Source of the DNA: a virus
IMG/VR virus record: IMGVR_UViG_3300019458_000037
Span: 1-60,611 of that record
Length of the DNA stretch: 60,611 bases
Reading direction: 5' to 3' (one strand)
The notes under the pieces were generated by a model. It saw nothing but the letters and a program-made list of their open reading frames with translations, made no database searches and was not told the origin of the DNA. Both the position numbers and the translations under genes were made by a program. This document shows positions 26,467 to 54,547 of the stretch, one piece after another (the first letter of the stretch is position 1; every line of letters starts with the position of its first letter).

Positions 26467-26540
26467 GCGAGGAGCAGATTGTGCAGGTGAAGCGCGATGC
26501 GGAAGTGATCTTCCACCAGCGCGACAAGCATCATCTCTAA
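26424..26540 (+). CDS. Probable second part of the 26251 gene (-1 frame)
   Basis: Open frame beginning GTG 26424: LDVTIDDGFRAILSEEQ then IVQVKRDAEVIFHQRDKHHL, stop TAA 26540. No ribosome site of its own. It overlaps the end of 26251 and reads naturally as its C-terminus in the -1 frame. Could alternatively be a short overlapping gene. Confidence 0.4.
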   Translation: MLDVTIDDGFRAILSEEQIVQVKRDAEVIFHQRDKHHL

Positions 26541-26548
26541 GGTGAGGG

Positions 26549-26568
26549 CACGGGGCTGCGGCCCCGTG
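26549..26568 (+). terminator. Strong hairpin, terminator-like
   Basis: CACGGGGC (26549-26556) pairs with GCCCCGTG (26561-26568), loop TGCG. No T-run follows (TAAACC), so termination is uncertain. It lies between two early genes. Confidence 0.4.
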
Positions 26569-26618
26569 TAAACCTACTGCCTGGTCCCAAGTCTAGGCGC
26601 AACCAGAAGGAGGGCGTC

Positions 26619-47151: not shown

Positions 47152-48072
47152 ATGACACGTAAAGCCAATAAACCAGCCGAGGCGCAGGAGCCGAACGGTG
47201 AGGCGACCAGCGCGTTTCCCGAAGAGACGATTTCCCTGGCGCGTCTCTCGAAAGATTTGAAAGCCGCGGCCAAGCTGCTGACGCCGGAGCAGGCGCGCTA
47301 TTTGGTCGACACCTATTATCAGATTCAGCAATTCCGCATTAACGCGAGAGGGCAGGAGCGCGCCGCCGAAGAGAGCCGCGAGCCGCATGGGTTCGTCTCC
47401 TGGACGGCGGATCTGCTCGACCGGATCGAAGCCTCCATCAAGCTCTCGCTGGACATCTTCTCCGAAGAGCATACGGCCGGGCGATGGGCGAAGCGGCAGA
47501 TGGGCGTAGGGCCGGTGCTCGCGGCCGGGCTGCTGGCGCATATCGATCCGCAGAAAGCACGCACCACCAGCGGGTTGTGGCGCTTCGCCGGGCTCGATCC
47601 CACACAGCAATGGAATAAGAAAGAGAAACGCCCCTGGAATGCCAAGCTCAAGGTCTTGGCCTGGAAGCTGGGGGAATCGTTCGTCAAGGTCCATAATAAG
47701 CCCGAGGCGTATTACGGCAAGGTCTATGCCGATCGGAAAGAGGAAGAGATTGCGAAGAATGCGCAACGGCTCTTCGCCGACCAAGCCAGGGCGATGCTGC
47801 AGAAAAAGAATTTCAGCAAAGATACCAAGGCGCGCCAAGCCTACCAGCAGGACCTCTTGCCGGATGGGCACATCCATGCACGCGCCAAACGGTACGCGGT
47901 GAAACTCTTTTTGGCACACTATTTCCAGGTCGCCTGGGAATCAACCCAGCAAACGCAGGTCCCGAAGCCGTATGTCATTGGGATCTTGGGGCATGCGAAA
48001 TATCTGGCGCCGCCGTATTGGGATCCCGCGCGGCGCGAGGTGCAAGGCGAGGACGGCGAACAGTCAGCATGA
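47152..48072 (+). CDS. Phage protein with IS110 transposase-like helix-hairpin-helix
   Basis: 306 residues; CAAGGAGAATGTC precedes ATG 47152. KRQMGVGPVLAAGLLAHIDPQKARTTSGLWRFAGLDPT resembles the C-terminal Transposase_20 domain of IS110 proteins (G-x-G-P-x-x-A ... L-x-x-F-A-G-L-x-P). The DEDD catalytic domain of IS110 is absent, so it is not a transposase. It probably binds DNA; related proteins are frequent in phages. Confidence 0.55.
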   Translation: MTRKANKPAEAQEPNGEATSAFPEETISLARLSKDLKAAAKLLTPEQARYLVDTYYQIQQFRINARGQERAAEESREPHGFVSWTADLLDRIEASIKLSLDIFSEEHTAGRWAKRQMGVGPVLAAGLLAHIDPQKARTTSGLWRFAGLDPTQQWNKKEKRPWNAKLKVLAWKLGESFVKVHNKPEAYYGKVYADRKEEEIAKNAQRLFADQARAMLQKKNFSKDTKARQAYQQDLLPDGHIHARAKRYAVKLFLAHYFQVAWESTQQTQVPKPYVIGILGHAKYLAPPYWDPARREVQGEDGEQSA

Positions 48073-50151: not shown

Positions 50152-50899
50152 GGTGCGCAGCCATTGACCAACGAGCGCGTCACGGTGGAAGAGCGAGCCA
50201 CAAAAGAGGACGGCGGCCAAAGAAGTGTGCGAGCCACGTACCATGAAGGCGTCCTAGAAAGGGAGCGAGCCAACGTTGGCGAAGGCGTCACAATTGGCGA
50301 GCGAGACACACGGCCAGCGCTTGCGTCATGTAGACAGATCGAGCCATCATGAATGACTGCCGCGCAGGCAAAGAGCGAGCCGAAGAGAGGGAGTGCGACA
50401 TCGAGCAGCGAGCGAGACAAGGGACGCGAGGGAGGCCACTTTCCAGATCGAGCCATAGTGCATGAATACAGCATCATCTAGTGAGAGCGAGCCCGAGATG
50501 GAGACTGTTGCAGTCTGACGCGAGCGAACCATTGACCCCGAGTGCGCCATTGGATAGGAGTGAACCATAAGTGACGACTGAGTCCGCCGTTGCGAGTGTG
50601 GAGCCATTGAAACGGAGCGCGTCCTGAATTGAGAGCGAGCCCAATGATCGCGACAGAGACACAGCTGAGGAGCGAGCCATATCACGAGACGGCGGCATAA
50701 GGATCGAGCGAGCCATCGTTGACGACGGTGACCGAAGGAATGAGCGAGCATGGTGCATGAATGTGTAGCATAGCGAAAGAGCGAGCCCTTATCCAAGGAG
50801 TGCCGCCTGGTGGTGGAGCGAGCCATGAAGAGGGAACGGCGTCTACAAGCGGGAGCGAGCCATAGGAGGCGGAATGCAGCCGACGTGAAGAGCGTCAAA
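50152..50899 (+). repeat. Bipartite 18-base-period array 1
   Basis: About 40 ten-base motifs on one strand. Type I GAGCGAGCCM (19 copies, e.g. 50191, 50263, 50373, 50633, 50706, 50816, 50853) alternates strictly with type II GAnnGnGnCM (e.g. GACGGCGGCC 50209, GAAGGCGTCC 50245, GAGTGCGACA 50391, GACTGAGTCC 50576). Spacers are usually exactly eight bases and all differ. Full unit 36 bases. A few spacers are 9-11. No long forward frame runs through it; reverse frames are open but change phase, so it is unlikely to be coding. Confidence 0.9.
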
Positions 50900-50955
50900 T
50901 CCGCCGTCAGCGCGGGCAGCACGCCTGGGCTGAGCAAGCATGCAGAGCGACCCTT

Positions 50956-50982
50956 GAACGCCTTGGAGAGGCCGAAATTGCC
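50956..50982 (+). repeat. 27-base exact repeat, copy 2
   Basis: Identical to 35772-35798 in the 3-prime end of the 35235 gene. Here it lies between the end of array 1 and the gene at 51042, in a stretch (50900-51032) with only degenerate array motifs and no gene I can support. Confidence 0.85.
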
Positions 50983-51041
50983 TGGATTTAAGGGTATTCC
51001 AGCCCTAGATCAAGAAAGCGGCAAGCGAGAAGGAGCGAGCC

Positions 51042-51293
51042 ATGAGCGGTGAGATGACCAAAGTTTCACCCTCTGAGCACAGCATCAAGATCAAGCTGCA
51101 CGGGATATTCGATTCGCGCAACAGTGTGGTCATCGACGGCATCGAGCTTGCCAGCTACGTGCGTAAAATCGACGTCATGGCGGATGCCGGTGATTTGCCG
51201 ATGGTGGTATTAGAAATACCTGTCACGCAAGTCATGGAATTTGAAGCGGTGGCTGCACGCATAGGGATCAAAATGCCTACCGAGAACAGATAG
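51042..51293 (+). CDS. Small protein before the terminase genes (83 aa)
   Basis: The start codon is formed by a perfect type I array motif: GAGCGAGCCA at 51033-51042 followed by TG, with GGAG acting as ribosome site. Beta-rich: EHSIKIKLHGIFDSRNSVVI, then VRKIDVMADAGDLPMVVLEI. Not recognised; likely a structural or packaging accessory. Confidence 0.55.
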   Translation: MSGEMTKVSPSEHSIKIKLHGIFDSRNSVVIDGIELASYVRKIDVMADAGDLPMVVLEIPVTQVMEFEAVAARIGIKMPTENR

Positions 51294-51307
51294 GATAGGT
51301 AGCCGGC

Positions 51308-51682
51308 ATGTTCGTGAAAGGCCAAGGCAAGGTCGGCGGGCGCAAGCCAGGGGTGAAGAATAAGCGCACGCTCGAATTGGCGAAACTCTGCGCCAAGCTC
51401 ACGCTCGATAATCCGAAATTCGTCAAGCAACTCCAGGACATGATTGACAAAGATTTCACGCAGATCGATACCCCGCTCCTCCTCCGCTTGATTGACTACG
51501 GCTATGGGCAGCCGCAGAAGCGCGTCGAATTGAGCGCGCCGGGCGGCGGGCCGATTGAAGTCGTCAGCCCCGATTTTGGCGCCCCCAGCCGCTACCAGCA
51601 ACCAGCGGCTCGCGGCAATGGCGGGCGCAATGGCTCTCCAAGTACAACCACACCTTCCAACGGCCGCCGAACACGACGTTAA
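51308..51682 (+). CDS. Small terminase subunit-like protein
   Basis: 124 residues. Starts FVKGQGKVGGRKPGVKNKR, a basic G-R-K-P-G-x-x-N-K-R motif usual at the start of small terminases or DNA-binding packaging proteins, then helical (LELAKLCAKLTLDNPKFVKQ). It overlaps the large terminase by about 65 bases. It would recognise the packaging site; arrays lie on both sides. Confidence 0.55.
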   Translation: MFVKGQGKVGGRKPGVKNKRTLELAKLCAKLTLDNPKFVKQLQDMIDKDFTQIDTPLLLRLIDYGYGQPQKRVELSAPGGGPIEVVSPDFGAPSRYQQPAARGNGGRNGSPSTTTPSNGRRTRR

Positions 51683-52973
51683 GCGACGGCTGCACTACCG
51701 TCGCCCCTGGCTCTATGAGGCCCAGGAGAACGCCATCTTCACCTTGGCGCGCTTCGCCTTCATTGAAGCCTCGACCAAGAGCGGGAAAACGCTCGGCGCA
51801 CTGATCTGGCTGTTCGAACAACTCCTGCAAGGCAGCGAAGGGGATGCCGTCTGGTGGGTGGCGCCTTGGTTTCGAGCGAGCCGCATTGCCTACCGGCGCA
51901 TGCGCTTTGCCTTGCGTCATTGGCCGCAACTCTTCCGACATAACGATAGTGAAATGACCATCACCGCGGTGCCGATTGGCGCGACGATGTTCTTTCTCTC
52001 GGGCGAGAATCCGGACTCCCTCTATGGGGAGGACGTCAAGGCGGCGGTGATCGACGAAGCGAGCCGGTGCCGAGAGGAGGCCTTTCATGCCGTGCGTACG
52101 ACCTTGACCGCCACGGGCGGGCCGCTGCGCTGCATCGGCAATGTCAAAGGCCGGCGCAATTGGTTCTACCGGTTGGCACGCCAAGCCGAAGCCTCCAGCA
52201 AGACGGACGCCGAGCGCACCAATACCCATTATGCCAAATTCACCTGGCGCGATGCCTGCTCAGCGGGCCTGGTCGACGAGCAAGATATTCGAGAAGCCCA
52301 GGCGATGCTGCCGACCAACGTCTTCAAGGAACTCTATGAAGCCGAGGCGGCCGACGATAGCGGCAATCCCTTCACCTACCGCAAGACGACCATGGCGAAA
52401 GGACCGGCGGTCGCCTGGGGCTGGGATCTAGGGAAATCGGTCGACTGGACGGTGGGCATCGGCCTCAATAGCAAAGGGCAGGTCTGCGCGGTCGAGCGCG
52501 TGCAATTCCCCTGGGAAGAAACCATTGTCTTTATCAAAACACATACCGGTCGAGCGAAGGCGCTCGTCGATAGCACGGGCGTTGGGGATCCCATCGTCGA
52601 ACGCTTGCAGCGCACCGAAGCAGAGGAAGGGGCCGAGGACACGCGCTGGGTGAAAGATCAGATGGGCGGCAATTTTGAAGGCTTTAAGTTCACCTCACCG
52701 TCCAAACAACAATTAATGGAAGGCTTGGCGTTGGCGCTGCGCGAATGGCTCAGAGTCCCTGAAGGGGTCGTCACCGCCGAGCTTGACGTCTTTGAATATG
52801 TTTACACGCGCACCGGGGTACGCTATAGTGCGCCATCAGGCAGCCATGACGATGCCGTCTGTGCGCTCGCCTTGGCCGCCTGGCTCTGGGTCACCGAATT
52901 CAAAACACGCGCCGCCATCTCGGCCGCTCAGATTGTTGGCATCGGAGGGACGAGCAAATGGAAAGGCCATTGA
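51618..52973 (+). CDS. Large terminase subunit
   Basis: 451 residues from ATG 51618 (ATG 51630 possible; the frame is open to a TTG at 51555). ATPase: Walker A-like ASTKSGKT (51-58), Walker B AAVIDEAS (142-149). Nuclease: GWDLGKSVDWTVGIGL, LVDSTGVGDPIVE and a C-terminal GSHDDAVCALALA, the three acidic clusters of RNase H-type terminase nucleases. Packages DNA through the portal. Confidence 0.9.
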   Translation: MAGAMALQVQPHLPTAAEHDVKRRLHYRRPWLYEAQENAIFTLARFAFIEASTKSGKTLGALIWLFEQLLQGSEGDAVWWVAPWFRASRIAYRRMRFALRHWPQLFRHNDSEMTITAVPIGATMFFLSGENPDSLYGEDVKAAVIDEASRCREEAFHAVRTTLTATGGPLRCIGNVKGRRNWFYRLARQAEASSKTDAERTNTHYAKFTWRDACSAGLVDEQDIREAQAMLPTNVFKELYEAEAADDSGNPFTYRKTTMAKGPAVAWGWDLGKSVDWTVGIGLNSKGQVCAVERVQFPWEETIVFIKTHTGRAKALVDSTGVGDPIVERLQRTEAEEGAEDTRWVKDQMGGNFEGFKFTSPSKQQLMEGLALALREWLRVPEGVVTAELDVFEYVYTRTGVRYSAPSGSHDDAVCALALAAWLWVTEFKTRAAISAAQIVGIGGTSKWKGH

Positions 52974-53022
52974 CGGCGCTCTCACCTCGAACGCTTGGCG
53001 TGCCTGCGCGATCCTGCTAGAC

Positions 53023-53583
53023 TACGGAGCCAGCCAATGAAGCACGACTGCAGCCTGGCTGTGGAGCGAACCAATGAGCCAGAATGTCCCATAGAAACTG
53101 AGTGAGCCAACCTGTGTGAAGGCGGCAGGGTTGAGGAGCGAGCCATCCGTCCTGACGGGATCATGAAACGTGCGCGAGTCAAAACAGTGGACTGACACAT
53201 AAATTGAGAGCGAGCCATGGGAAAGGGACTGCGACCAGCTTACCGTGCGAGCCACGTATATGGACTGAGGCCAAGAATAGGAGCGAGCCCGGGTGGGTGA
53301 TGGCAGCATCGAAGTTGGAGCGAGCCAATTACCGGGAGTGTGGCCAACCCTGAGAGCGAGCCATGTGAGACGATTGTGTCCTTGTAGCAGCGCGAGCCAA
53401 AGGTACCAGACTGCGGCATGGAGCAAGAGCGAGCCCTAGCTGGAGATGGCGTCCTCAAAGTTGAGCGAGCCCTACGATCTGAGGAGCAGCATGAAGAATG
53501 GAGCGAGCCATTCATCGAGAATGCCACCAAATGCAAGAGCGAGCCAGATAGTTGGATTGACACCTTGGAGGTTGAGCGTTTCA
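53023..53583 (+). repeat. Bipartite 18-base-period array 2a
   Basis: About 31 ten-base motifs with the same alternation as array 1 (type I at 53064, 53100, 53136, 53208, 53281, 53318, 53354, 53427, 53463, 53501, 53537; type II at 53082, 53118, 53190, 53263, 53336, 53372, 53409, 53445, 53519, 53555). The last motif, GAGCGTTTCA (53574-53583), supplies the A of the next gene's ATG. Begins about 50 bases after the large terminase stop. Confidence 0.9.
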
Positions 53584-53942
53584 TGAGCGACTGGATCCGT
53601 CATGGGGAGTGCAACCAATGTGGGGATTGCTGCCGTCAGGCGACGAACCCGGTCGAGGTGCTGGTCCCGCTCGAAGCGAGCTATGGGCGCGTGCGCTTCG
53701 GCGAGCCGGTGCGCTTGACGATGGAGAATGGGACGCCGGTCACGCTCTTTCGCATTCGCGGGCCGATCTTGAATCCCTGCCCGGAATTGCGCGGCAATCT
53801 CTGCGGGATTCAGGCGTCGAAGCCGATGGCCTGCGTGGTCTTTCCAACCGAACCGCTGCAGATCGAAGGCACACGGTGTAGCTATTGGTTCGAGCATCGG
53901 CAGACCGGTGCCATTAAGCGCGCCGAGAGCCCTGAAACTTGA
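53583..53942 (+). CDS. YkgJ-like cysteine-cluster protein
   Basis: 119 residues from ATG 53583 (TTGGAGG upstream); the frame is open further 5-prime through the array, but that part is repeat-derived. GECNQCGDCCRQA has the CxxCxxCC cluster, followed by NPCPELRGNLCGI and KPMACVVFP, typical of the YkgJ family thought to bind zinc or an iron-sulphur cluster. It sits between two arrays, whose motifs begin again within its last codons. Confidence 0.75.
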   Translation: MSDWIRHGECNQCGDCCRQATNPVEVLVPLEASYGRVRFGEPVRLTMENGTPVTLFRIRGPILNPCPELRGNLCGIQASKPMACVVFPTEPLQIEGTRCSYWFEHRQTGAIKRAESPET

Positions 53943-54293
53943 GTGCCGCCTGGTCGTCGAGCGAGCCATCGTGGATGACTGAGGCCCATAGAGTGAGCGA
54001 GCCATGTGGTTGGTCGGCAGCATGCTACGCGAGCGAGCCGTGAGAAAGGACTGGCACAGTCGGAGGAGCGAGCCCATCCAGAAGAGTGTGGCCAACAGGG
54101 AGAGCGAGCCATCGAGAGAGACGGCGGCAAGAATGTAGAGCGAACCCATCGGGATCGACTGCCACAACACTCGTGAGTGAGCCCAGTGGTGGAATGGCGT
54201 CCTGAACCTTGAGCGAGCCCTTTTTGGCGATAGAGGCATTAAGGACGAGCGAGCCAGAGGCATCGAGTGCAGTCACCAACCGAGAGCGAGCCA
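53923..54293 (+). repeat. Bipartite 18-base-period array 2b
   Basis: About 21 motifs, the most regular of the three: nearly every spacer is eight bases (type I at 53959, 53995, 54031, 54066, 54102, 54138, 54175, 54211, 54247, 54284; type II at 53941, 53977, 54049, 54084, 54120, 54157, 54229). The final GAGCGAGCCA (54284-54293) forms the ATG of the next gene. Confidence 0.9.
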
Positions 54294-54547
54294 TGTGGAC
54301 GAATTTCACCCTCACTGATGGTGCCTTTCACAAAGTCGTCTGCCCGCTGATGGAGCGGTATCTGGCGACTTGCGGCGCGTGTGGTACGGAGCGCCAATTC
54401 TTCGGGACCTTTGAAGAGGCGTGCGAGGCGGCCAGGCATGCCTGCTGGCAGATCGAGCGCGAGGCGCTGCGCGTGTGCTGCCCTCTCTGCGCATTGCAAG
54501 CCAAACAAGGAGACGAGCTTGCCGCCAGTTCGCGTACCTACGCGTGA
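54293..54547 (+). CDS. Small zinc-finger protein (84 aa)
   Basis: Start codon is the end of the last array 2b motif (GGAG-type site lacking, AGAGCGAGCC in front). ATCGACGTER contains a CGAC pair, and RVCCPLCALQ a second CxxC; the helix between (TFEEACEAARHACWQIERE) is typical of phage zinc knuckles. Overlaps the next gene. Confidence 0.5.
   Translation: MWTNFTLTDGAFHKVVCPLMERYLATCGACGTERQFFGTFEEACEAARHACWQIEREALRVCCPLCALQAKQGDELAASSRTYA

Follow-up and report, generated by a model that had tools for sequence, protein, structure and literature searches.

What are the three blocks of short alternating motifs that lie around the terminase genes of an environmental phage, and is their design a new one? 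The DNA in question is IMG/VR record IMGVR_UViG_3300019458_000037, positions 1 to 60,611; this whole stretch of 60,611 nucleotides is called the window here. An earlier note, made from the sequence alone, had described two 10-base motifs alternating with 8-base spacers between positions 50,152 and 54,293 and had known of no described repeat class with that design. The arrays do belong to a known class: they have the design of TIGR arrays (Faure et al. 2025, PMC12045711), and a Tas gene is present in the same window. It is almost certain that the three blocks are the arrays of a TIGR-TasA system.

The regularity of the arrays is well beyond that of shuffled sequence. A cyclic two-motif profile (10-base motif I, 8 free bases, 10-base motif II, 8 free bases) called array 1 of Table 1 with a score of 376 and a second stretch, 53027-54293, with a score of 434. 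The control maxima were 23.3 in 25 dinucleotide-preserving shuffles and 22.4 in the remainder of the window. The second call spans a gene and is therefore divided into arrays 2 and 3. Together the arrays hold 45 complete 36-base units (20 + 15 + 10) plus truncated end repeats, or about 93 motif copies; the first count had been 92 (40 + 31 + 21). The motifs alternate strictly in all three arrays with every copy on the + strand. Most spacers in the window are exactly 8 bases, as are about 95% of those in 38 related contigs. Coding repeats were considered as an explanation and rejected, since the spacers contain stops and the period shifts. In these respects the original description (real, non-coding, strictly alternating, on one strand, with 8-base spacers) was accurate. 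Its 18-base rhythm needs correcting, since the arrays repeat by pairs of spacers, 36 bases at a time.

The partner gene was located by all-against-all blastn of array loci, where one conserved block occurs near the arrays in many otherwise unrelated contigs. This block maps to window positions 47500-47920, inside the open reading frame at 47152-48072. The encoded protein matches the NCBIfam equivalog NF052498 TIGR_Tas_endo ('TIGR-Tas system RNA-guided endonuclease') with 185.9 bits (cut-off 100); the validated SpTasH scores 118.9 bits on the TIGR_Tas model. Profile matches in the PDB include TasR (9mty, 3e-29) and TasH (21kl, 2e-19). An AlphaFold model built with 44 homologs is all helical (pLDDT 87.1), and a fold search of the PDB returned TasH and TasR chains as the top 11 hits, with IS621 recombinase further down. 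The Pfam scan detected no nuclease family in this protein, whether HNH or RuvC, and the model contains no beta-sheet nuclease fold. Since it lacks both domains, the protein is a TasA by the published nomenclature. PHROG 4285 labels it 'transposase', a function name that was rejected; NCBIfam gave no IS110 match at E <= 0.1.

In published TIGR arrays an edge repeat and a loop repeat, each 8-12 nucleotides long, alternate, separated by spacers that usually have 9 nucleotides (8 in SpTIGR). Their 36-nucleotide tigRNAs are released by cuts halfway along the edge repeat, and the array ends carry truncated edge repeats (PMC12045711). Such truncated ends are present in arrays 1 and 2. Array 3 opens with a truncated edge that shares bases with the 3' end of gene 53583-53942, and its final edge repeat is full-length and abuts the ATG at 54293. 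Truncated GAGCG at array ends identifies GAGCGAGCCM (type I) as the edge repeat, which makes type II the loop repeat. The two repeats are reported to covary at their box C and box D ends (PMC12045711). The same holds here: across 37 contigs, uncorrected for relatedness, the last base (base 10, A or G) of the edge is correlated with that of the loop at r = 0.98, and the first base at r = 0.86. Insertions within edge repeats, for example GAGCGTTTCAGCCA, are concentrated after base 5 (GAGCG^AGCC), where about 21 of about 32 internal ones fall. Because this mid-edge position is that of the tigRNA cut and of end-repeat truncation, extra bases there would stay out of the guide core; on sequence grounds, the cluster offers indirect support for a mid-edge RNA cut in these phages.

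The design is widespread. The pattern GAGCGAGCC-N(24-30)-GAGCGAGCC was found in at least 120 IMG/VR stretches. Nearly all of those listed have the same layout, an edge repeat GAGCGAGCC followed by A or G, 8 free bases, a second motif and 8 free bases, with a mean pairwise spacer identity of 0.2-0.35, about that expected by chance. The second motif is constant within a phage and differs between phages (GAGAGAACC, GAGAGTACC, GAGAAAACC, GATAGAAAC, GATGTGC and others). It is 8, 9, 10 or 11 bases long by lineage, so that the period ranges from 34 to 37 with a constant spacer of 8 bases. The query undercounts the family, as L346-L348 have the same design with the edge GAACGAGTYA. In isolate bacterial genomes the same pattern yields mostly coding or perfect tandem repeats that are unrelated (spacer identity above 0.8), and true arrays in that search were on metagenome-assembled contigs only. 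A tas homolog is present in 34 of 38 viral records selected by their arrays and in 38 of 46 further ones (72 of 84 in total; the 46 exclude four others chosen by Tas itself), and several of the array records without tas are short fragments. Among records carrying relatives of the window's terminase large subunit, none of four has tas, and the terminase regions of six hold no arrays. A single edge repeat, GAGCGAGCC, is enough to mark a very large population of environmental phages.

Other occurrences were seen along the way. A 7183-base contig from a Proteobacteria metagenome-assembled genome (L131) carries the same TIGR units at its two ends and may be a small circular TIGR-bearing element. 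Gene 42 of the cultured Gordonia phage Morrissey (L350 3540-4830) encodes a Tas protein (NCBIfam TIGR_Tas, 206.8 bits) and is flanked by three perfect hairpins with stems of 13-21 bp and 30-nucleotide loops with CCA boxes. The arrangement resembles a TIGR array of the stem-loop type, in a phage that can be worked with in the laboratory. DNA resembling the tas region of Morrissey occurs in 76 mycobacteriophages, several with the annotation 'transposase', e.g., SarFire gp72 (L432 1230-1937); these may be mislabelled Tas proteins.

How TIGR arrays gain spacers and what they target are listed as unknown by the authors who described them (PMC12045711). Related phages with internal replacement of whole units make the question of array turnover directly testable. 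L347 and L348, whose tas genes are 96% identical, have about 40 units each, and 30 of these align with spacers that are 97% identical. The non-aligning units show no relationship and form eight blocks inside the array, every one of them between shared units (for example, one unit replaced one-for-one). The best dual-spacer matches are bimodal (n = 40), with 29 at 15/16 or better, 1 at 13/16 and 10 at 11/16 or lower. Inheritance is therefore by dual-spacer A+B units, which turn over whole and at internal positions. In these pairs internal replacement may reflect either exchange or independent loss and gain. The idea that the spacers are more conserved than their surroundings is unsupported (97% versus 96% for tas).

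These comparisons bear on the view that the arrays are protein-binding sites on duplex DNA, such as partition, packaging or replication iterons, with spacers drifting freely. The arrays do flank terminase genes, and their motifs are conserved with spacers of near-random composition, as binding sites might be. Free drift would not leave A+B pairs either identical or wholly different, as the 40 units of L347 and L348 are. Moreover, the period follows loop length while the spacer remains 8, and a Tas gene accompanies the arrays; iterons are very improbable. Because the period varies, the 18-bp step does not correspond to a constant spacing on the helix, and the phasing of DNA-binding sites that had been proposed is not needed to explain the arrays. 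Nor are the spacers free, as was first thought: they are inherited in pairs and do not drift independently.

Smaller overlaps are seen in other phages. L079/L098, L039/L106, L033/L064, L027/L124 and L049/L112 have 4-8 units in common, almost always as A+B pairs, and in some of them the order of units has changed. Comparison with G089 (about 24% nucleotide divergence in the flanks) gave no units in common. Growth from one end, as in CRISPR, was suggested by L079/L098 but not adopted, given the internal replacements spread along the L347 and L348 arrays. Within phages, single spacers with a new partner exceed chance (23 A-only and 31 B-only, about 1 expected). In the comparison of L079 with L098, one spacer A, GATGACCC, is found joined to three different B spacers, which suggests half-unit recombination at loop repeats. 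Duplicate units within one phage are both adjacent and far apart, as might be expected if the arrays were remnants without function, in which tandem repeats expand and persist by drift. Such remnants would hardly keep the same motifs in unrelated phages whose spacers are no more alike than chance, an intact and conserved tas gene, and edge/loop covariation, and this explanation is the least credible of those considered. The arrays are more than simple tandem duplications, as the note had argued, and its phrase 'assembled unit by unit' fits them. It is possible, although we hold the idea only tentatively, that internal whole-unit exchange supplies new guide pairs against foreign DNA; it would be phage-encoded or recombination-based, unlike Cas1-Cas2, and would not add units at the end.

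The sequences themselves establish the layout of the arrays, the identity of the Tas protein, its lack of a nuclease and the passing on of A+B pairs. Taken as TIGR arrays, and by analogy with published work on TasA, TasR and TasH, the blocks would be transcribed with the downstream genes as a precursor RNA. Cleavage halfway along every edge repeat (GAGCG^AGCCM) would release 36-nucleotide tigRNAs that run from AGCCM through spacer A, the loop repeat and spacer B to GAGCG. These would each be held in a TasA dimer. Spacers A and B are reported to pair with opposite DNA strands (PMC12045711), and here spacer A would lie on one strand and spacer B on the other strand of an adjoining 16-bp site. 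Because it lacks a nuclease, TasA should bind and bend its target, not cut it. Function in this phage would then be RNA-guided, nuclease-free DNA binding, probably directed against other elements, and bound TasA would probably block transcription, replication or integration of competing elements. The biological role is a matter of speculation and might be interference with such elements, regulation or an aid to recombination.

Several results weigh against this interpretation. The window's loop repeat is more variable than in most relatives. Its arrays, downstream of tasA on the same strand, begin about 2.1 kb away, and those of most relatives abut tas on the same strand. A rho-independent terminator typically follows a TIGR array (PMC12045711), a trait that is typical and not defining; directly after the window's arrays no convincing intrinsic terminator was detected, with counts not above those in shuffles. 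Natural targets have been equally elusive. The comparison of spacers with the phage itself, which the note had put forward, gave no exact match for the window's 46 pairs, near-matches not above permuted pairs, and no natural target. For 1187 pairs from 39 contigs, self and cross-phage matches were not above permuted A/B pairings.

The same searches bear on whether the system serves self-regulation, with guides aimed at the phage's own genes and not at other elements. A TasA without nuclease could act as an RNA-guided repressor. Exact self-matches are absent and near-matches not in excess, both for the 46 window pairs and for 1805 pairs in 67 contigs, and we regard self-regulation as unlikely. 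In the larger set, opposite-strand self-matches were in fact fewer than expected (131 versus 168.5, sd 13.2, with 0 of 400 permutations as low), and same-strand matches, the control, were at 171 versus 169.4. The deficit stems from the first 38 contigs (77 versus 111); the added contigs gave 54 versus about 57. There is at most a hint of self-avoidance by the guides, one not replicated in the added contigs. The first spacer base is A/T-rich and G/C-poor in 2982 units (T 0.35 at A1; A 0.36 and T 0.33 at B1).

The surroundings of the arrays are listed in Table 1. The true start of the terminase large subunit is probably near 51680, because the listed frame overlaps the preceding gene. Edge repeats stand directly before several start codons, as GGAGCGAGCC-ATG (51033-51042), GAGCG-TTTC-ATG (53574-53585) and GAGCGAGCC-ATG (54284-54295), and could, judging from their position, double as ribosome-binding sites. 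Other genes of the phage have AAGGAGG-type signals. An intergenic type-P5 twister ribozyme lies at 26540-26596 on the + strand (Rfam RF02684, 50.9 bits, gathering threshold 37.6). Across the array region an Rfam search stayed empty with the limit relaxed to E <= 1; PADLOC gave no hit, and blastn against named phages no match.

Table 1. Positions of the arrays, tasA and neighbouring features in the window.
Feature	Position	Strand	Remarks
tasA	47152..48072	+	306-residue TIGR-associated Nop/IS110-C-like protein without nuclease domain
TIGR array 1	50159..50894	+	20 units; begins AGCCA, ends GAGCG; cyclic profile
Isolated edge repeat GAGCGAGCC	51033..51041	+	abuts ATG of gene 51042-51293; GGAG is a possible Shine-Dalgarno
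Small gene just before terminase	51308..51682	+	no family match; putative terminase small subunit by position only
Terminase large subunit	51555..52973	+	open reading frame as listed by the tool; Pfam Terminase_3 5e-7, PHROG 7579 1e-10
TIGR array 2	53027..53578	+	15 units; truncated edge GAGCG at end, beside ATG at 53583
Gene with CxxCxxCC metal-binding domain, separating arrays 2 and 3	53583..53942	+	Pfam PF03692 8.8e-6
TIGR array 3	about 53928..54292	+	10 units; cyclic profile

Among known systems CRISPR arrays are alike in being repeat-spacer arrays that code for guide RNAs. CRISPR has a single repeat of about 25-36 nucleotides with spacers of similar size, whereas the window has two alternating 10-nucleotide repeats and split spacers of 8 nucleotides, with no Cas genes seen and no polarised growth shown; the early judgement that this is not CRISPR was correct. 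The IS110/IS621 bridge-RNA transposases have the C-terminal RNA-binding domain in common with the window protein (IS621 profile E = 1e-4), which differs in lacking a DEDD/RuvC catalytic domain (Pfam scan and model) and a bridge RNA and in having long guide arrays. The closest counterpart is found in TIGR-Tas, subtype TasA (PMC12045711), which shares with the window alternating edge and loop repeats, paired short spacers, a 36-base unit, truncated end repeats, covarying box C/D-like ends, a nuclease-free Nop-domain Tas protein and a phage host. As reported there, spacers are usually 9 nucleotides and arrays most often of 5-15 units; the window has 8-nucleotide spacers and 45 units in three arrays, which lie 2 kb from tas, interleaved with terminase-region genes, with a degenerate loop repeat and no clear terminator. 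SpTIGR-TasH of Salicola phage CGphi29 (HQ634153), whose array has been processed and tested in the laboratory (PMC12045711), has edge AAGCGAGCCA, one base different from the window edge, loop AAGACAACCA, 8-nucleotide spacers and a 36-base period. Its effector carries an N-terminal HNH nuclease that the window protein lacks. The window adds a many-unit TasA phage to TIGR-Tas, a compact system for RNA-guided DNA binding that came to light in 2025; the family to which it belongs adds a large population marked by one edge repeat, an insertion signature at the cut site, and internal turnover of whole units.

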